From a virus, in the IMG/VR virus record IMGVR_UViG_3300005663_000028, positions 1-64,000 of that record: DNA of 64,000 bases; one strand, given 5' to 3'. The notes under the pieces were generated by a model. That model made no database searches and was not told the DNA's origin. It saw only the letters and a program-made list of their open reading frames with translations. Shown here in pieces: positions 2,311-15,002 of this stretch (positions are counted from its first letter, which is position 1; every line of letters begins with the position of its first letter). A program made the position numbers and the translations under genes.

Positions 2311-3832
2311 TTTTCTTCCCTTCCAAAAGACGACGACCCGTGGTACATGATTCTAGACTGTGACACCCAGTAGGGCTTTTGTCAAATATAAATCGCTTAC
2401 CTTTGACTTGGACAAGCTTACTGGGGGTAGAACCCCCGTTCGTCCCCTTTCGATTCCGCGCGCAGGTAGAGACGCATTTTCACCCTTTAGGATATATTAT
2501 AACTCCACTACGTCGGTTAGCTAGACCAACAAGGTAGTTAATCCCAGAGCCGCAATCCCCAATACTGGCAATAGATGCCGACGTTAGCGTCTCACCCCTA
2601 TACCATACAGAGCCGTCGGATGTGACTAGAAATAATACATTTCTCCTTCAGCTAAACCACAGTCCAGAATCACATACCACAACAAAAAAAGAGACCGGAC
2701 GGGCAGGCTTCGGCACGATTTATTAACCCATCCTTCATTCACGGGATCATTCTTCCGCCCCGTATAGGCTTGCCACAGCATTACCCGTCGACAGAGAGTT
2801 AAGGGTCGACGCCGCTCTAGGCCACATTCCCGCCCGATCTCAAAAATTGGCAAGCTAACCCACCAAACTTGCCACACGAATAAGGCACTTTGCAGTGCGA
2901 CACCCTCCGAAGAGAATGTCTTACCCGCATTCCCGGCCCATTAGGCCCTAACCGCTGCTTTTTTATGGACTACGCCCTAGCAGATAAATCTAGCTATCTG
3001 TTAATCCAGGACGGTTTCTTGAGTCCTTAACTTAACGACCAATCAAAGCCGAAACAGTCTCGCTAGACGAGATATATCTGTTTCTAAACTCCGTTTGTCG
3101 TGTCGCGCCGTTCAGCTACAAAAAAATCGCGACTACGAATACTGCCCGTATTCGCGCCACGACCTATAATGCCATTCCGACATGCGAAGAATTGTTCCAC
3201 CTATCAAACTTTCGGACCGAATATACCGCCAGCAACAGGACATTAGACCGGAAAGAAAGAATTGACAGTTTAGCAATTACTAGACATGCCCTTGGAAAAT
3301 TGCCTATCACGCGACAATAAAAAACCTACACTACTACGACCAGACGGCTTACCATAACGTACATCTGATAGTGAACACGACCTACCCTTTTCTGTCTTGC
3401 TATCCGGGGCTGTACCGGAACCGTGCGCCACAAACTAGGAATCGTGCCGATAATACGTTACTTGACCCGCCCGCGCAATTATAGCGTAGACTAAGTCCGC
3501 ATTTCGGACTTTACGTTCTGTCGCCTCTAAGACTGGCGTTCGACCGATAACTGTTTGCCCCGCCTGGAACCGGACGGACGCACGTCCTGCGCGACCATCG
3601 GACTGTATGACGGCAATTATCAGACTACTACCCAACCCCGTCCGGGGATACCCGACGCTTATCGGACTTCCCGCTGTGATTGGTTATGGGACGTGCTGAC
3701 GATATATTTTTCGCCTATAACGATAAAGTGCTACTTTACCAAACACGTCTGATTCTGACTAATAAGCCAGAATACCCATCGAGACGCGCCCCGCCATCGA
3801 GGCGCGCGTGCGACAGATACTCCATATCGGAC
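2311..3832. other. Gene-poor non-coding stretch of about 1.5 kb
   Basis: I find no open frame with a ribosome site on either strand, and the few longer frames lack any protein-like signal. Visible structure: a C5/G5 hairpin (CTGGGGGTAGAACCCCCG, about 2431-2448), a short inverted repeat CAGATA...TATCTG near 2981-3000, the first few CCGATAA words (about 3447, 3544 and 3659), and a GC-rich hairpin CGCGCC...GGCGCG at about 3785-3806 just past the stop of the next gene. It is more GC-rich than the rest of the window. Confidence 0.4.
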
Positions 3833-4156
3833 CTACTTGCCCAGTTTCTTGAGCGCCATACGGGTAGCGCCAATACCGTTCCGACGTCCGAGAATCGACT
3901 CGGCAATGACGGCGGCACTATCGGACCCAAAGCCCAGATCGCGCGGTGGAGTGTACCGACTTTTCGTGCCCTCCTCGATCTGACGCTCATACGTTTCCCA
4001 CGTTAACTTGAGCGCGGCTTGAGCATCGTCGAGACTGTCGTACTTAGACGCGGCATTCATAATGGCCGCATTTTGAGCGTAGACAGCGGCATTAGCCTTA
4101 AATTCGGTAGACCCAAATCCCGTTGACGTTCCGGTAGTCTGTGCGGTTTGTGACAT
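3833..4156 (-). CDS. Hypothetical alanine-rich protein
   Basis: 107 residues from ATG 4156-4154 with GGAGAAAAG upstream. The N-terminus is Ser/Thr/Gly-rich and probably disordered. Residues about 18-60 are alanine-rich helix, and the C-terminus is basic (RRNGIGATRMALKKLGK). The abundance of Q, A and T residues is reminiscent of a small structural or DNA-associated protein, but there is no recognisable domain. Its leader carries a series of hairpins. Confidence 0.6.
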   Translation of the reverse strand: MSQTAQTTGTSTGFGSTEFKANAAVYAQNAAIMNAASKYDSLDDAQAALKLTWETYERQIEEGTKSRYTPPRDLGFGSDSAAVIAESILGRRNGIGATRMALKKLGK

Positions 4157-4272
4157 TGACTTTTCTCCAATGTTAGACCGTCCCCAGACGAGACTACACC
4201 GTCCCGACCAGGGACGGACAAGTAGAATCTTATCGGAACTCATATTCGGACTTACATTGCGTAAGCCACCTG

Positions 4273-4375
4273 TTATCGGTCCCTTGCGGGACTTCGGTAT
4301 GTCCGCTTTTTTTGGGACGTTCTGAAACGTCCCTTTTCTGTAGGATGTTTTTTATTCCTACATAATACTATACCC
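4273..4375 (-). promoter_or_regulatory. Hairpin-rich leader of the 3833-4156 gene
   Basis: Three hairpins follow one another: TGTAGGA/TCCTACA (4339-4362), GGGACGTT/AACGTCCC (4314-4333) and GTCCC/GGGAC (4279-4292). A possible -10 on the minus strand lies just upstream of them (TATAGTATTAT, about 4364-4375), so they would be the first structures in a leftward transcript. The second hairpin is followed by T4 on the plus strand, so it might also stop rightward transcription. Confidence 0.4.
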
Positions 4376-4978
4376 CTAGTTATACAACCTGTCAAGGCGC
4401 GCCCGGAAATAGATTTTCGCCGTTTTTGGGCTTGAATCCACGATGTTATCGTCCAATTACCGATAATCTGCGATTGTAACAACGTCCGGATTTTTCGCTC
4501 ATTTATCGATCGTCTTCCTATAATATCTTCGTTATTCGCTCAAAATCCATTGTTTTATCGGAAAGTCCTATATTATAGGTTACGCGAGACCTATAACGTG
4601 CCATTTTGGGTCTGATAACCATGAAAAATGCGATATTATTGGTTAATACCTATAAGTCATGGTCCTATAACTCGAAAAGGTCGAAATTTTGGCTAAAAAT
4701 CGACACATTCTCGGACAGAGTAAACTATTATTGGCCTCGTCCGATAAAAACCCACGGCCCAACGTCCTATAATGAGAACCCTAGATTCCCCCTCTCGGGG
4801 CACCGCCCAACGTCCGATAATTAGCCAGACCCAAAAGGTCCGATAAAGTTGGACCAACGTGCGTCCGATAATGATTTGCGGAAAGAGGCCGATAACGTCC
4901 CTTTGTGCGAAAAAAAATAGGACCGAAGGTTGTGCATTCCCACGGTCCCGTAACCTATTGTACTCAACACGTCCGATA
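4376..4978. other. Non-coding stretch rich in CCGATAA-type words
   Basis: No convincing gene on either strand. It contains at least seven exact CCGATAA/TTATCGG words and several TCCTATAA or CCTATAAC variants, with spacing down to about 25 bases around 4741-4895. This is the densest purely non-coding part of the word array, so any function of the word here cannot be explained by protein coding. Confidence 0.5.
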
Positions 4979-5596
4979 TTACGGATCGTCGCGCCATCGG
5001 TCCGATAAACCGCCGAACCTATACTTGTCCGATAACTTGTCGAGAACCTTATCGGTCCAGAACATGTCGAATGGATTATCGGTCTCTTCCAGTGTCACTT
5101 CAAGACCGTTGATTCCGATAACACGAAATGGCCGACACCTGCCGTCCGATAATAGCCAGTCCAGCAGATGTTCGCCGATGTTCCGATAATTGTGGTAAAT
5201 ATAGTCGCCGATTATCGGTCGTTTGTGTTTTATCGTTAGTCCGATATCCGCACAGTGCCGAAGTCTCGCCAACGCCCGATAATACTTGAATGGAATCTCG
5301 ATCGTCGTTTGCGCCTTATCGGTCACATTCTCGCCATCGCCCTGCGCACGTCCGATTTTCGGACCATCATCTTCCTTGTCGGTCGTTGTGTTGGATTCGA
5401 TCGCCGCGACTCGGTCCAATAATCCGTCGATTTGCGACAAGTGCGCGCCGTGTTGTTCTGTCATTTTTTCCAGTATCGCTTGATGGCCCGATAACTGCTG
5501 GACAATCTTATCGGTCATTGCGTTTGCCGCGTCCGATAATCTCAGAACTGATTTTTCGAGATAATCAATTCTCTCTTCAATTGTTCTTTCACACAT
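4979..5596 (-). CDS. Coiled-coil protein with a C-terminal domain shared with a neighbour
   Basis: 205 residues from ATG 5596-5594, preceded by GGAGCGATAAT. Residues 1-75 have a heptad-like helical pattern (a likely coiled coil), followed by an acidic linker. The last 60 residues (WLLSDGR ... NPFDMFWTDK ... LSDRWRDDP) resemble the C-terminus of the protein at 5832-6158, which has NPNGAHWTDK and LSD at matching places. Many LSD and TDK tripeptides are direct translations of the CCGATAA word. Function unknown. Confidence 0.65.
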   Translation of the reverse strand: MCERTIEERIDYLEKSVLRLSDAANAMTDKIVQQLSGHQAILEKMTEQHGAHLSQIDGLLDRVAAIESNTTTDKEDDGPKIGRAQGDGENVTDKAQTTIEIPFKYYRALARLRHCADIGLTIKHKRPIIGDYIYHNYRNIGEHLLDWLLSDGRCRPFRVIGINGLEVTLEETDNPFDMFWTDKVLDKLSDKYRFGGLSDRWRDDP

Positions 5597-5610
5597 ATTA
5601 TCGCTCCTTG

Positions 5611-5793
5611 TTATCTGTCCGATATTGTCCACTCTATCGTACCGACAGCACAGTCCGATAATGGTAGATGGTCTTGGCCGTGGTCCGGTAATCTACGTCG
5701 CAGGAGTTTGTCTATTATCGGTCTTTCCCATAGCGTGCCCCATGAGGTTCCGATAACCTGTAAATCCTCGTATGTTAGGTGATAGCGTGGCAT
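5611..5793 (-). CDS. Hypothetical 60-residue protein
   Basis: Starts at ATG 5793-5791 with GGGGGGCGATAAT before it, the same ribosome-site type (GGNGCGATAA) as its neighbours. An upstream in-frame start would overlap the previous gene and lacks such a site. No domain seen. PLSDC and the end TISDR contain the translated word. It lies between two paralogous genes, 15 bases before the start of the next. Confidence 0.5.
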   Translation of the reverse strand: MPRYHLTYEDLQVIGTSWGTLWERPIIDKLLRRRLPDHGQDHLPLSDCAVGTIEWTISDR

Positions 5794-5831
5794 ATTATCG
5801 CCCCCCTGTTTTCCCGTGGCGCTCGCGCCAC

Positions 5832-6158
5832 TTATAAGTTGTTGTTCCACTTGTCCCACAAATGCGACAGACCCGCGTCGTCCGATAACTGCTGGGTGAT
5901 CTTATCGGTCCAGTGCGCGCCATTCGGATTGTCGGATAGTCCCAATTTGACATAGTCGCCTTGTTGTTCGATAATCTCGAACATCGTGCCGTGCGATTTG
6001 GTTTGGTCTGATAACCACTTTTTTAGGTTATCGACCCATCGCCCGTAAACGAACGAGAGAACCGATTTGTTGTCCGATAATCTGTTCATCTGGACTAGCG
6101 AAATATAAAATCCCGCTGGAATTGTCAGTCCGATAATCACTACCTGTACTGTCGCCAT
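5832..6158 (-). CDS. Membrane-anchored protein with shared C-terminal domain
   Basis: 108 residues. GGGAGCGATAAC lies directly upstream of the ATG. Residues 3-23 are one hydrophobic segment and probably anchor the protein in the membrane. The remaining 80 residues are soluble and resemble the C-terminus of the protein at 4979-5596 (WLSD, NP....WTDK, QQLSD, L.D.W in the same order). The two may be membrane-bound and coiled-coil versions of one module. Function unknown. Confidence 0.65.
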   Translation of the reverse strand: MATVQVVIIGLTIPAGFYISLVQMNRLSDNKSVLSFVYGRWVDNLKKWLSDQTKSHGTMFEIIEQQGDYVKLGLSDNPNGAHWTDKITQQLSDDAGLSHLWDKWNNNL

Positions 6159-6232
6159 GTTATCGCTCCCTTTTTCGTGATTTTTCGTCTGATAAAAACG
6201 CGTTCATTTCACGTTATCGGCTTGTCCGATAA

Positions 6233-6607
6233 CTACTGCCCTGCGCTGCCCACCAAAACACCGCGCGTCAACCGCCGATTGCGCTCGCTTTCGACCACCG
6301 CCCGATAATTGACCTTCCCTACCGTATCCGACTCATCGACGTCCGAAAACATAAAGTTTCCGAGATAGCCGAATTCGTTGCCCAAGCGTCTGATAAGCGC
6401 TTTTTTCGCTGACTCCCGGTTTGCGCCGAATTCGCAGGCGCCATATAATGCGCTGTGAAACGGACCGACGACGACGCATAGGCAACCGCCGATAACCTTT
6501 TCGTACCGATACCGCACGGTCTTTGCTCGCGCCCGCTTATAGAACACCCCTTCGTCCGATAAGGGTTTGTTCCGTTTCGCTGTGTGTCCGATAACATGCC
6601 TGCCCAT
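6233..6607 (-). CDS. Hypothetical basic protein
   Basis: 124 residues. The ATG at 6607 was chosen because GGGAGCG lies six bases upstream. A second ATG ten bases inside opens another frame but is too far from that site. The chain is basic in its first half (HTAKRNKP, KRARAKTVRYRYEK) with a hydrophobic CLCVVV strand. No known motif. Confidence 0.5.
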   Translation of the reverse strand: MGRHVIGHTAKRNKPLSDEGVFYKRARAKTVRYRYEKVIGGCLCVVVGPFHSALYGACEFGANRESAKKALIRRLGNEFGYLGNFMFSDVDESDTVGKVNYRAVVESERNRRLTRGVLVGSAGQ

Positions 6608-6847
6608 GATACGCTCCCAAAAGTCCCAATAATTGTCTGCTGCCGTTTACACCGATTCTAGGCGCCCGATATTGGGAAGTCAAGGACCGATAAAAGAATT
6701 TTCACTTTTGGTCCTATCATATCCCGGCCCAAACAGAGGTCCGATCAGTTTCACTGGGTCTCAGGTCCGATAAAACACACCCGGAGTAAACCCGCGCGTT
6801 GAGGTCCGATAACTTGCAGTACGCCCGATAACCTTTGGCTCCGCGCA

Positions 6848-6876
6848 CAAAAAAGCGGCCCGATAATAGAGCCGCT
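6848..6876 (-). terminator. Rho-independent terminator, leftward
   Basis: On the minus strand AGCGGC and GCCGCT pair around an 11-base loop and are followed by six T. It lies 10 bases past the stop of the 6886-7236 gene. The loop contains one copy of the TTATCGG word. Confidence 0.7.
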
Positions 6877-6885
6877 TGTTGGGTT

Positions 6886-7236
6886 TCAACCGCTGAATAT
6901 GTCGGTCCATTGTGTGTCACAATTGACACAACATGCACGTTGGCGAACAACGCCATTATCGGTCCTTGGGGCACCGATGCCAACGACAACGTCCGATATA
7001 AAACACTCTGGACAGACATCGACATCGTCCACGTTATCGGCCCTAACGCTGTGATTGCGGAAGGTACGTCCGATAAGTCTCACACCTAGGTGTCCGCTAT
7101 CGTATCCACCTTGCCAAGCGATCGCGAGGCCAACGTCAACCGCCTCGATCGATTCGATAACACGTCGTGCCGACTCGGAGCACATACCTTGTCGCCTTGC
7201 CGTTGTCCCGTAGTCAAATGCTTCGTGTTCGTTCAT
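6886..7236 (-). CDS. Zinc-ribbon-like hypothetical protein
   Basis: 116 residues from the ATG at 7236-7234, with GGGAGCGTAGG upstream. The C-terminal half holds CPEC (about residue 76) and CVNC (about 104), a spacing that suits a four-cysteine zinc ribbon. The N-terminal half is a predicted helical segment with no motif. Transcription should end at the hairpin directly downstream. Function unknown; such proteins often bind nucleic acid or another protein. Confidence 0.6.
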   Translation of the reverse strand: MNEHEAFDYGTTARRQGMCSESARRVIESIEAVDVGLAIAWQGGYDSGHLGVRLIGRTFRNHSVRADNVDDVDVCPECFISDVVVGIGAPRTDNGVVRQRACCVNCDTQWTDIFSG

Positions 7237-7252
7237 AGCACACCTACGCTCC

Positions 7253-7543
7253 CTAAATGATTGGTCCTATAACCACGTCGTTTGCCCATTCGCGGAATCC
7301 ACCGCAACGTCTGATAACATCCATGTCCACCGGACGAATACTTGTGCCTAGTTCGCCGGTCAGCGAGTCGCGTCCGATAGCTACTATTTCTCCCGTAGAT
7401 AGCCTAATCGTCACAGACCCATCACCGTCCGATAACGTCAATGCCGCGAGTCGTCCATAGGACATGGCCATAACGTCCGAGAACATGGTGTATGTCAATT
7501 CTGGGAAAGGTCCGTTTTTCGGTATTGTGATTGTCGCGAGCAT
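7253..7543 (-). CDS. Hypothetical beta-rich protein
   Basis: 96 residues from ATG 7543-7541. A TTG three codons upstream touches the GAAAGG ribosome site and is less likely. The middle alternates short strands (LTLSDGDGSVTIRLSTGEIVAIG), like a small beta barrel. TLSD, MFSD and VVIGP are translated copies or variants of the CCGATAA word in different frames. Seventeen bases separate it from the next gene. Confidence 0.55.
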   Translation of the reverse strand: MLATITIPKNGPFPELTYTMFSDVMAMSYGRLAALTLSDGDGSVTIRLSTGEIVAIGRDSLTGELGTSIRPVDMDVIRRCGGFREWANDVVIGPII

Positions 7544-7570
7544 GATACACAACCTTTCTTGTTATCGGCC

Positions 7571-7765
7571 CTAGTCGGCCGAGCAATAATCATAGTAGTC
7601 ATGCGGACCATGGATTTCTAGTTCCGATATTCGCCCCGAATCTAGTTCATCGGCGGCATATTCTCGGGCTTTGGCAAGGTCCGAAAACGAACGCGTTTTG
7701 TACTTCCGCAAACGGGTCGGTGTTTTCAGGTGGCACACAACGTCGTATTTTTCGGTCGTTTGCAT
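7571..7765 (-). CDS. Hypothetical small protein
   Basis: 64 residues starting MQTTEKYDVVCHLKTP at ATG 7765-7763, behind AAAGGGAGA. It looks like a small beta-beta-alpha protein (strand, basic RLRKYKTRSF, helix with AREYAADEL, strand, acidic tail). This resembles small phage proteins that modify gene expression, but no family could be assigned. Confidence 0.5.
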   Translation of the reverse strand: MQTTEKYDVVCHLKTPTRLRKYKTRSFSDLAKAREYAADELDSGRISELEIHGPHDYYDYCSAD

Positions 7766-7779
7766 AATACAGTCTCCCT

Positions 7780-7866
7780 TTACAAAGAGTTGAGATCGGA
7801 AAGAATGTCCGAGAACCAAAACCATCCAACCGCCACCAACACGAGTCCGATAATAAGCACTGTCAT
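7780..7866 (-). CDS. Membrane microprotein, 28 residues
   Basis: Starts ATG 7866-7864 behind AGAAGGGATAGGG. The protein is almost entirely one membrane helix (residues 1-20), followed by DILSDLNSL. The stop lies 14 bases before the next gene. Very short, so moderately supported only. Confidence 0.4.
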   Translation of the reverse strand: MTVLIIGLVLVAVGWFWFSDILSDLNSL

Positions 7867-7870
7867 TGCC

Positions 7871-8134
7871 CTATCCCTTCTCGTCGAATGTTCCGTCACT
7901 CGCCTGTACCACGTCACCCGATGCACGATACCATCCATCGGCCCAATTGTCGAACGCGGTGTCACCGATCGGCGATGTCGTTGGCATTGTGTCGCCTGCG
8001 AGGTAGCCGAAGTATCCGGTTTTGAATTCAGGTCGCTTCCGATCGAATCGTGCGTAATGCTTCGCGTAATGTTTCGTCCAATTGAATCCGGCGTCGGCTA
8101 GTTTCTGTATTGCTTGTCCTGTCCCGTCGTTCAT
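7871..8134 (-). CDS. Hypothetical protein, 87 residues
   Basis: Starts ATG 8134-8132 behind AAGGGAGCAAG. It has a helical N-terminus (about 5-20), then an aromatic and basic stretch (FNWTKHYAKHYARFDRKRPEF), glycine-rich turns and a WADGWYRA segment. No domain recognised. It overlaps nothing and ends four bases before the microprotein gene. Confidence 0.5.
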   Translation of the reverse strand: MNDGTGQAIQKLADAGFNWTKHYAKHYARFDRKRPEFKTGYFGYLAGDTMPTTSPIGDTAFDNWADGWYRASGDVVQASDGTFDEKG

Positions 8135-8156
8135 GGCTTGCTCCCTTCGTCCGATA

Positions 8157-8291
8157 TTAGCCCCGATACTGCATCGAGAACGCTCCCTTGATACACCCGA
8201 TAACAATCACCGCTACGATACACAAGGCGAACCGAGTAAGGTCCGAAAACATCCATTCGCCCGCTTCCATGATCGCTTGTTCGATGTTCAT
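8157..8291 (-). CDS. Membrane microprotein, 44 residues
   Basis: Starts ATG 8291-8289 with CGGGAGC upstream. Residues about 18-34 form a hydrophobic helix after an acidic, amphipathic N-terminus (MNIEQAIMEAGEWMFSD). It is the first gene of the leftward arm and lies 35 bases downstream of a plausible -10. Function unknown. Confidence 0.5.
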   Translation of the reverse strand: MNIEQAIMEAGEWMFSDLTRFALCIVAVIVIGCIKGAFSMQYRG

Positions 8292-8326
8292 CGCTTTGCT
8301 CCCGTTGGCCACCGTCGGCCAATTGA

Positions 8327-8355
8327 ATTGTAGGATACGATCGGCGCGGATGCAA
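8327..8355 (-). promoter_or_regulatory. Candidate leftward promoter
   Basis: On the minus strand TTGCAT (8355-8350) and TACAAT (8332-8327) are separated by exactly 17 bases. It would start transcripts near 8320, just ahead of the 44-residue membrane protein and the leftward arm. The -35 matches the consensus weakly. Confidence 0.4.
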
Positions 8356-8440
8356 AAACATTGCCAAGAAAACTTTTGGTCCGATAACTCTGCCCTGGTC
8401 GGTGGTGCTCGCTCCCAGATAGGGGGAGTAGAGGTAACGT

Positions 8441-8706
8441 CACGTCACGAGGTAGGGTCACGAGGTAGGTAGGGTCACGAGGTAGGTAGGGTCACGAGGT
8501 AGGTAGGGTCACGAGGTAGGTAGGGTCACGAGGTAGGTAGGGTCACGAGGTAGGTAGGGTCACGAGGTAGGTAGGGTCACGAGGTAGGTAGGGTCACGAG
8601 GTAGGTAGGGTCACGAGGTAGGTAGGGTCACGAGGTAGGTAGGGTCACGAGGTAGGTAGGGTCACGAGGTAGGTAGGGTCACGAGGTAGGTAGGGTCACG
8701 AGGTAG
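8441..8706. repeat. Homogeneous 17-bp tandem repeat, about 15 copies
   Basis: The unit GGGTCACGAGGTAGGTA repeats head to tail about 15 times with no visible divergence. The first copies after 8441 are slightly shorter. Just past the array, 8733-8744 carries CCTACCTACC, the complement of part of the unit. No reading frame makes a protein-like product. The array lies between the leftward and rightward gene arms. Iterated units of this length occur at replication origins, but here that role is only a guess. Confidence 0.9.
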
Positions 8707-9126
8707 CACCTACTATATGTGGTGTGCCCATACCAACCTACCTACCACATGGATAGTCCGATAACTCCGCCGCTACGTCCGAAAGGGGTACGCCCGATAA
8801 ATAGGGGATTTGGAAGGCGTGGGGGCGTCCGATAAGCCGACGGGGTTCAGGCAAATCCGGCCCCCAAAACCCACCCCCTGCCAAAAACAATAATGTATAT
8901 TTCATATCTGCAAAAACCCCGTCTTTAAGAATTTCGCTACATTAACCACCTCTTCTCCCTCCTCTTCATGTTGAAACAAACTTCAACACCCTCCTTTCAG
9001 TAAACACCGGTACACTTTTACTGCATAACGTTCCACCTAGTCGAACGATCTACATAGGGGGTGTACCCCTTTTATAGACGCTATATCAATAGACTTATAG
9101 GACTGAAAAAAGATGCAAAAATAATC
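8707..9126. other. Divergent intergenic region
   Basis: No gene seen. It carries the last three CCGATAA words (to 8840), then an A/T-richer stretch with a pyrimidine-rich segment (about 8945-9000) and a small hairpin AGGGG/CCCCT followed by TTTT (about 9056-9072). This is where leftward and rightward transcription part. Confidence 0.5.
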
Positions 9127-14246: not shown

Positions 14247-15002
14247 ATGGATAGATTAGATTGGAACAACAGAAATCGATTGTCGTGGTGGTTTCCTAAG
14301 ATACCAAAAGAGATATTAGTCCCAGAAACACGGATTTTTCCGAAATGCGTTTGGGCAGATTGTGGTGCAAACCATTTTGTTCTTATTGGTGTTTTGGATG
14401 GTAGGAAACCAGAAGCGTTTGATACTTTGTGTTGGCAACTAAAAGCGGCGGGAGACGAGCTTGGATATCCATTTTTTCTGAGAACTGATTATCTGAGTGG
14501 TAAACATGGATGGAACGATACCTGTTTCGTGACACACGCAATCGAAATTCCTTGTCACGTAGCTCGGTTGATTGAAGAAAGTATTGGGGCTGACATACTT
14601 GGGTTTCCACCAGATTGTTGGATAGCTAGAAAAATGATTTCTACTATCCCTTCGTTTTTTGCTTTTCATGGAGACATGCCCATCGTGAAGGAACGACGAT
14701 ACTTTGTGCAAGACAGCAAAGTGTTGTGTCACCACCCCTATTGGCCTTCAGAGGCTTTTGACTTTGTTCGTGTGTCTATTGATAGTTGGCCCACGCAATT
14801 GGACGAGATGAATTATCAAAGTTCAGGTGAAATTAGTTTGTTGTCTGATTTGAGTGCCAAGGTGGGCGGTGTAGTGGGTGGTGCATGGTCGATTGATTGG
14901 TTGTGGTCAGAGCCAGAACAACAGTGGTACTTGATAGATATGGCTGAGGCTGAAACAAGCTATCACTGGAAAAATTGTTTCAATTTTTCGGACGTTAAAT
15001 AA
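14247..15002 (+). CDS. ATP-grasp domain protein (R2K-like)
   Basis: 251 residues from ATG 14247, with GGAGA upstream. ATP-grasp enzymes join a carboxylate to an amine using ATP. Visible here are FFLRTDYLSGKHGW (about 72-85), matching the R...SxKxxW signature of R2K-clade phage ATP-grasp proteins, a basic strand ERRYFV (about 151-156), and GAWSIDWLW...WYLIDMAEA near the end, where acidic residues would hold magnesium. Substrate unknown. A second, better-matching member lies at 19756-20592. Confidence 0.6.
   Translation: MDRLDWNNRNRLSWWFPKIPKEILVPETRIFPKCVWADCGANHFVLIGVLDGRKPEAFDTLCWQLKAAGDELGYPFFLRTDYLSGKHGWNDTCFVTHAIEIPCHVARLIEESIGADILGFPPDCWIARKMISTIPSFFAFHGDMPIVKERRYFVQDSKVLCHHPYWPSEAFDFVRVSIDSWPTQLDEMNYQSSGEISLLSDLSAKVGGVVGGAWSIDWLWSEPEQQWYLIDMAEAETSYHWKNCFNFSDVK

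Follow-up and report, generated by a model that had tools for sequence, protein, structure and literature searches.

The first 64 kb of the IMG/VR virus record IMGVR_UViG_3300005663_000028 (hereafter the window; the record spans 179,553 bp, and its remainder was also read) come from a large uncultured bacterial virus, a phage of ~180 kb. Near its left end, the window carries a dense array of the word CCGATAA and its complement TTATCGG. Judged by sequence comparison, this word is very probably the XerC arm of dif, the site of Xer recombination, as it occurs in Planctomycetota and deltaproteobacteria. With less assurance, we favor the view that the array is a platform that loads XerC, presumably supplied by the host, beside an Xer core for dimer resolution, circularization, or an attachment (att) function.

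The first-pass annotation of this DNA had counted by hand about 54 words, some 39 in one orientation and 15 in the other, and had described the word as rare elsewhere. Exact counting returned the same totals (Table 1), and the other 174 kb of the record hold 22 copies versus the 54 within the 5.4-kb array. On both strands of the window there are 66 copies, whereas dinucleotide shuffles give 8.0 on average and 15 at most. When near-consensus sites are included (GTCCNATAA, or GTCCGATAA with a single mismatch of the forms tested), the 5.4 kb contain 76, compared with 1.5 and a maximum of 6 in first-order Markov resamplings. Moreover, eight minus-strand open reading frames (ORFs) of the array include 27 words, whereas 2,000 synonymous-codon shuffles yield 6.0 on average and never more than 14; codon usage therefore does not account for the enrichment. 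It thus persists in the dinucleotide- and codon-matched shuffles in which the annotation had allowed that it might disappear. Words are equally dense within and between ORFs (27 in 3,009 bp of ORF and 27 in the remainder), and selection therefore acts on the DNA rather than on protein or codon usage.

The full array consensus is [A/G][C/G]GTCCNATAA-Y. The flank preference reported earlier as GTCCGATAAY is also borne out, with G at position -2 in 44, T at position -1 in 29, and a pyrimidine after the word in 38 of the 54 copies. Plus-strand words prefer GTCCGATAA and minus-strand words prefer GACCGATAA. A 17-bp repeat had been noted in the same region, and it is real (15 copies at 8450-8706). 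It does not contain the word, however, and it was not seen in relatives, which makes it particular to this phage.

The XerC arm (C arm) of dif is 11 bp long, NNGTCCNATAA. One published dif from Myxococcales reads ACGTCCGATAA TATGGA TTATGGTAACT and begins ACGTCCGATAAT, and a second reads AGGTCCGATAA CATGCG TTATGTAAACT and begins AGGTCCGATAAC (PMC2731167). The same study of dif in Proteobacteria lists GTCCCATAA for Geobacter and GTCCTATAA for Syntrophus (PMC2731167). By itself, this match could be luck, as it was picked among papers holding the 9-mer; most literature matches to the bare word are primers. The identification was therefore put to four independent tests: the variation of the word, its partner arm, host genomes, and the architecture of the sites. 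The classes named in the first-pass annotation, among which it knew of none with this sequence in a phage, had omitted recombinase half-sites, and it is there that GTCCNATAA-Y finds its counterpart. Uptake sequences, Chi, and FtsK-orienting polar sequences (KOPS), which it had mentioned, call for over-representation across the genome, whereas this word is confined to 5.4 kb. Integron attC/attI sites were rejected on inspection because GTCCGATAAY and RTTATCGGAC lack the core motif RYYYAAC/GTTRRRY. DnaA boxes or iterons read by a phage initiator are a less clear case: the DnaA box TTATCCACA has only TTATC in common with the word, and the array lies at the skew change.

With regard to variation, the arrays of this phage and its relatives (class I, described below) tolerate most change at position 5 of the word, which is G in 178, T in 49, C in 41, and A in 13 cases. 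The same position varies among dif C arms, and G is the most frequent base both in arrays and in Planctomycetota dif. With regard to the partner, in the viral loci outside class I the XerD arm (D arm) motif TTATGT is found 11 times exactly 6 bp after a C arm, and no other spacer between 0 and 40 accounts for more than five occurrences. The five at spacer 20 and the two at spacer 21 probably represent these cores again, counted from a neighboring arm at -14.

Bacterial genomes provide the third test. The pattern GTCCNATAA-N6-TTATGT is present in 32 of 79 Planctomycetota genomes, as one site in 31 of them and as two sites in the other (G114), and 30 of these 33 sites read GTCCGATAA. It also occurs in the phylum of a metagenome-assembled genome (MAG) labeled 'Deltaproteobacteria', where 13 of 59 genomes have it, and a reversed control pattern gave almost no match in the same scans. 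No extra arms were found within 600 bp of chromosomal dif at the eight loci inspected. All 15 planctomycete genomes searched have one or two XerC/XerD-type genes, and among ten proteins from five such genomes each pair consists of one that matches best as XerD and one that matches best as XerC. A Phycisphaerales contig (L153) has a core like those of the class II phages below, with four arms. We also considered whether GTCCGATAA clusters in bacterial genomes might represent a widespread mobile element, and discarded the idea, as many of those checked are simple tandem repeats, for example with periods of 12, 18, 21, or 41 bp.

A separate observation concerns the bacteria themselves. The sequence ACGTCCGATAA-N6-TTATGTT is a single site in many Planctomycetota (L365-L372 and the genome scan), which makes it a candidate chromosomal dif and offers a candidate consensus for many members of a phylum in which a 2011 genome survey could predict no dif (PMC3025954).

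Arrays of the word recur in other viruses. Three copies of GTCCGATAA within ~95 bp occur in 63 IMG/VR stretches, of which 37 have at least five and 23 at least eight words with distinct flanks. The reversed word gives 11 stretches, with at least five such words in two and at least eight in none. Three copies of the Escherichia coli-type C arm GTGCGCATAA gave no match in IMG/VR, which suggests that the phenomenon is tied to hosts whose dif is of the GTCCNATAA type. The array loci range from 33 to 64% G+C and belong to two kinds of virus. Class I groups this phage with about a dozen relatives. These are large phages (113-181 kb in several records), and their degenerate arrays extend over ~3-6 kb and are biased toward one strand. 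The relatives G001, G003-G007, and others have a conserved block of DNA in common with the window (66-76% identity), and in class I alignments the word columns are 87% identical versus 72% elsewhere, in agreement with the earlier proposal that word positions would be conserved in relatives. The array adjoins the point at which transcription and GC skew diverge in all class I records inspected, and its words are directed at that point. No close DNA relatives were found among deposited phages, in which the recombinase and terminase of this phage have distant homologs only.

Class II comprises tailed phages that are unrelated to class I and have smaller clusters of near-invariant GTCCGATAA in both orientations. 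One of them carries terminase and portal-like DUF4055 genes, and no recombinase was detected in this class. The architecture of these loci is the fourth test: a complete dif-like core (C arm, 6 bp, D arm) is flanked by XerC arms, with about 10 half-sites per locus. In L118, L119, L125, L131, and L250, the arms lie at offsets -67<, -37<, -14>, 0>, 30/31<, 47>, 63>, and usually 77> (< and > denote orientation), and in L053 the arm register is shifted by 10 bp. These loci are related by descent yet diverged, with arm columns 96% identical and other columns 52%. The suggestion in the first-pass annotation that the words are protein-binding sites thus gains a specific form, the XerC arm of dif. Its other suggestion, a selfish short repeat, is unsupported given the conservation at homologous positions, the nonrandom spacing, and the fixed class II offsets around a dif-like core.

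Besides the array, class I phages have a recombinase of their own. Of the 13 class I records searched, nine carry a single gene for a tyrosine recombinase of ~295-308 codons, and the four without it (G003, G009, G010, and G011) may be fragments. The gene of this phage lies outside the window, at positions 134577-135461 of the record. Its product matches PF00589 (E 3e-39) and PF02899 (E 4e-11), with structural matches to XerA and XerD, and the catalytic R, K, HxxR, H, and Y are invariant in eight sequences, as expected of a tyrosine recombinase. It is not an ortholog of XerC or XerD, as it falls below both cut-offs (205 bits versus 335 for TIGR02224, XerC; 214 versus 330 for TIGR02225, XerD) and belongs to a separate clade with support of 100/100. 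This clade comprises 23 IMG/VR loci with at least 48% identity, and nothing further exceeds 31%. Two of its members, G023 (181 kb) and G024 (168 kb), were found through the recombinase only, and each has an array at the skew change, as predicted beforehand. No exact word was found in four shorter clade records (38-123 kb, possibly fragments), and no array was seen in 12 viruses that carry Xer-like genes of other kinds.

Within class I arrays, half-sites on the same strand show spacing peaks at 18, 24-27, 33-36, and 51 bp. The preferred spacings of 18, 24-27, and 33-36 bp are fitting for ordered binding. Helical phasing was considered and dropped, since the peaks fit a period of ~8.5 rather than 10.5, and we make no helical claim. 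Inverted pairs of C arms at spacers of 0-8 are absent, which might reflect avoidance of accidental cores or a protein that needs room.

The class I counterpart of the class II core is a candidate in the left part of the array (Table 1). Around it, C arms lie at ~-10<, 0>, +23>, and ~+96>, with a pair ~25 bp apart near +186 to +219. At the equivalent position, G001, G003, G004, G005, G006, G007, G012, and G024 have a C arm and, after a 6-bp spacer, TTAYGCKAGTC or a close variant of it, and the half-sites nearby keep a similar register. This D arm differs from the bacterial TTATGTWAA, and the spacer is 6 in nine phages. Class I arrays were also searched for a full canonical dif, one with a TTATGT arm at spacer 6, and none was found. 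We read the D arm of this core as one that has shifted to fit the phage Xer, and this is the weakest link of our interpretation.

Taken together, these sequence comparisons suggest the following scheme. Many copies of the C arm of host dif, lacking the D arm as partner, would surround one candidate Xer core. Host XerC would load cooperatively on the half-sites in both classes, because the C arm is their shared element whereas Xer is encoded by class I only, and would form a nucleoprotein complex beside the core. In class II, XerC might then act with host XerD on the D arm TTATGT..., and in class I with the phage Xer on the altered D arm TTAYGCKAGTC. Recombination at the core would serve the phage by resolving genome dimers, by circularization, or by att-type recombination with host dif. 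The half-sites would play the part that accessory arms play in lambda attP or in the TnpI/IRS system of Tn4430, at a far larger scale. More broadly, it is conceivable, though we hold this quite tentatively, that phages of several lineages have made the XerC arm of host dif into a mass binding field, in which a recombinase-coated structure (class I spacing mainly 24-27 and 33-36 bp) either drives a hybrid reaction of host XerC and phage Xer or sequesters host XerC.

Several findings weigh against this scheme. It is not obvious why a recombination core would need ~76 half-sites spread across 5 kb. The phage Xer clusters with neither the XerC nor the XerD of planctomycetes. The class I D arm is a moderate match to the XerD profile, in that 0.45% of the 11-mers in the region score at least as high as TTATGCTAGTC and 3-6% score as high as the forms TTACGCGAGAC and TTACGCGAGTC; the D arm of the window itself is a weak match to bacterial XerD arms (3.2% of 11-mers as high). 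A spacer of 6 is unremarkable when averaged over class I arrays. Finally, the host to which the word presumably points, a Planctomycetota or deltaproteobacterial lineage, is indicated by the dif arm itself.

We rank a locus for dimer resolution or circularization as the most likely explanation, with an XerC sink as its main rival and with transcription control or an origin less likely. As a sink, the array would titrate host XerC away from dif and thereby block chromosome dimer resolution or the Xer-dependent integration of competitors. The 76 near-consensus sites, which far exceed what recombination needs, and half-sites that mostly lack a D arm and are equally dense in genes and between them would suit such a role. 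We nevertheless consider it unlikely, as the fixed class II offsets around a full dif-like core would be superfluous for a sink and class I phages retain an intact Xer of their own. It is more doubtful still that the words are operators, comparable to mycobacteriophage stoperators, through which a phage or host protein, possibly Xer, silences or organizes the leftward early genes. The position of the array beside the transcription and GC-skew divergence point, with words facing it, in every class I phage inspected would be in keeping with such control, but the words show no intergenic preference, and it would have to be coincidence that the word matches the dif C arm exactly and has a TTATGT partner at 6 bp. 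Iteron-type origin or centromere sites bound by a phage replication or partition protein seem very improbable: in all class I phages the array does lie where the GC skew changes sign, and in this phage it adjoins a 17-bp tandem repeat, yet skew here also tracks gene direction, that repeat lacks the word and was not seen in relatives, and the dif-like cores would remain unexplained. Chance or a composition-driven mutational bias with no protein behind the word can be dismissed for practical purposes, for although the G+C content of the array differs from that of the rest of the phage, the dinucleotide, Markov, and codon-preserving controls refute it, as do recurrence at loci of 33-64% G+C and the conservation of the words.

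It is useful to compare the arrays with known systems in light of the reading that they load XerC beside an Xer core. Like dif/XerCD, they use the 11-bp XerC arm, and class II has the complete succession of C arm, 6 bp, and D arm; unlike chromosomal dif, a single 28-bp site, they contain tens of C arms without D arms. The integrative mobile elements exploiting Xer (IMEX), such as CTXphi, VGJphi, and TLCphi, are likewise viruses with a dif-like site (attP) that is read by host Xer, but they are mainly filamentous and have one or two such sites, whereas the phages here are tailed, combine a core with a field of half-sites, and in class I add a phage-encoded Xer. The internal recombination site (IRS) of Tn4430, used by TnpI, and the ColE1 cer and pSC101 psi sites resemble the arrays in that a tyrosine-recombinase core is flanked by accessory sequence. 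At IRS, the recombinase itself binds the accessory repeats. There are two such motifs in IRS, and cer and psi rely on PepA, ArgR, or ArcA, whereas the phage loci have ~10 half-sites in class II and upward of 50 in class I, and an accessory protein of the PepA, ArgR, or ArcA type was not identified.

Lambda attP is similar in having a core with recombinase arm sites at fixed distances on both sides, as in the class II register; its arm sequence is unlike the core and is bound by another Int domain, whereas in the phage loci one word serves as both arm and core half-site. The stoperators of mycobacteriophage L5 are also many short asymmetric sites with a strand preference. They are mainly intergenic, are found genome-wide, and are bound by the immunity repressor; they consist of another word, whereas here one 5-kb field lies half inside genes. 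Dif-like phage sites (IMEX) and accessory recombinase sites (TnpI/IRS, attI, and lambda attP) are known already, and the new element is the half-site field. To our knowledge, no system with a field of tens of Xer half-sites has been described, and we found no arrays of XerC binding sites in the open literature. Their occurrence in related and unrelated viruses points to an undescribed way of gathering host recombinase on viral DNA.

A dense phage word that had no explanation thus gains a specific candidate identity, common to unrelated phages, which predicts that the proteins bound to it are Xer recombinases. If this is true, the arrays would represent a new route by which phages use or disarm host chromosome dimer resolution, as well as a regulatory principle not described for tyrosine recombinases. 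They might also serve as host markers, with the word indicating hosts that have this type of dif.

Table 1. Array, candidate sites, and neighboring features in the window (coordinates in the 64,000-nucleotide stretch)
Feature	Position	Strand	Remarks
Half-site array	3447..8835	+	54 exact CCGATAA/TTATCGG: 39 plus, 15 minus
Candidate class I core	4563..4590	+	C arm AAGTCCTATAT, 6-bp spacer TATAGG, D arm TTACGCGAGAC
Dif-like match	7473..7500	+	ACGTCCGAGAA CATGGT GTATGTCAATT; best in the 179.5-kb record at 20.4 bits (next 14.5) with a six-sequence dif profile
Conserved DNA block	2930..4655	.	66-76% identity among class I phages; holds the first words and the candidate core
Tandem repeat, 17 bp x 15.1	8450..8706	+	AGGTAGGGTCACGAGGT; right edge of the array, adjoins the GC-skew sign change
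Conserved small gene	3833..4243	-	Left end of the array; no Pfam match
Predicted sigma-70-like promoter of the 3833-4243 gene	4367..4395	-	TTGACA-17-TATAGT
ORF of 217 aa	4979..5632	-	13 words; no confident family
Small ORFs	5832-6158, 6233-6607, 6886-7236, 7253-7552, 7571-7825, 7871-8206	-	13 more words; no family

The left part of the conserved block contains no single conserved reading frame. Conservation among class I phages from 2930 to 3740 is at the DNA level in all frames, and a noncoding RNA or cis element is possible there; a search of the first 12 kb against Rfam gave no match. The small gene at the left end of the array has a homolog, recognized by eye, on the minus strand of L060 (~7180-7490). 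The G+C fraction of the array and the block is ~0.41-0.54 versus ~0.30-0.55 in flanking DNA (window 3001-9000 and relatives), as if both were under their own compositional pressure.

Some further observations concern individual records. In G011 (L278:1-174), a 23-bp tandem repeat of 7.6 copies (CCGGTTATCGGACCTTGCCGCGT) contains the word. Contig ends fall within ~5 kb of the array in six long class I records (at position 1 of the window and in G004, G006, G008, G011, and G012) and may be genome ends, packaging starts, or an assembly break. A MAG labeled Heimdallarchaeota (CP070695, ~92 kb; L170/L280) has a class I array and sequence similar to window positions 14588-14693; this is probably a virus within the assembly and does not argue for an archaeal host. 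The first ~80 bp of the window are repeated at record position 177305. The right end of the record (L014:14453-15553, record 178453-179553) carries an MgtC-family gene and another bacterial-looking frame and is a probable chimeric join. Elsewhere, the phage encodes PolIII alpha, DnaB-like and RecA-like proteins, and NAD-ligase, together with a BrxL-like ATPase/protease, N6_N4_Mtase and MT-A70 methylases, ThyX, and ribonucleotide reductase.

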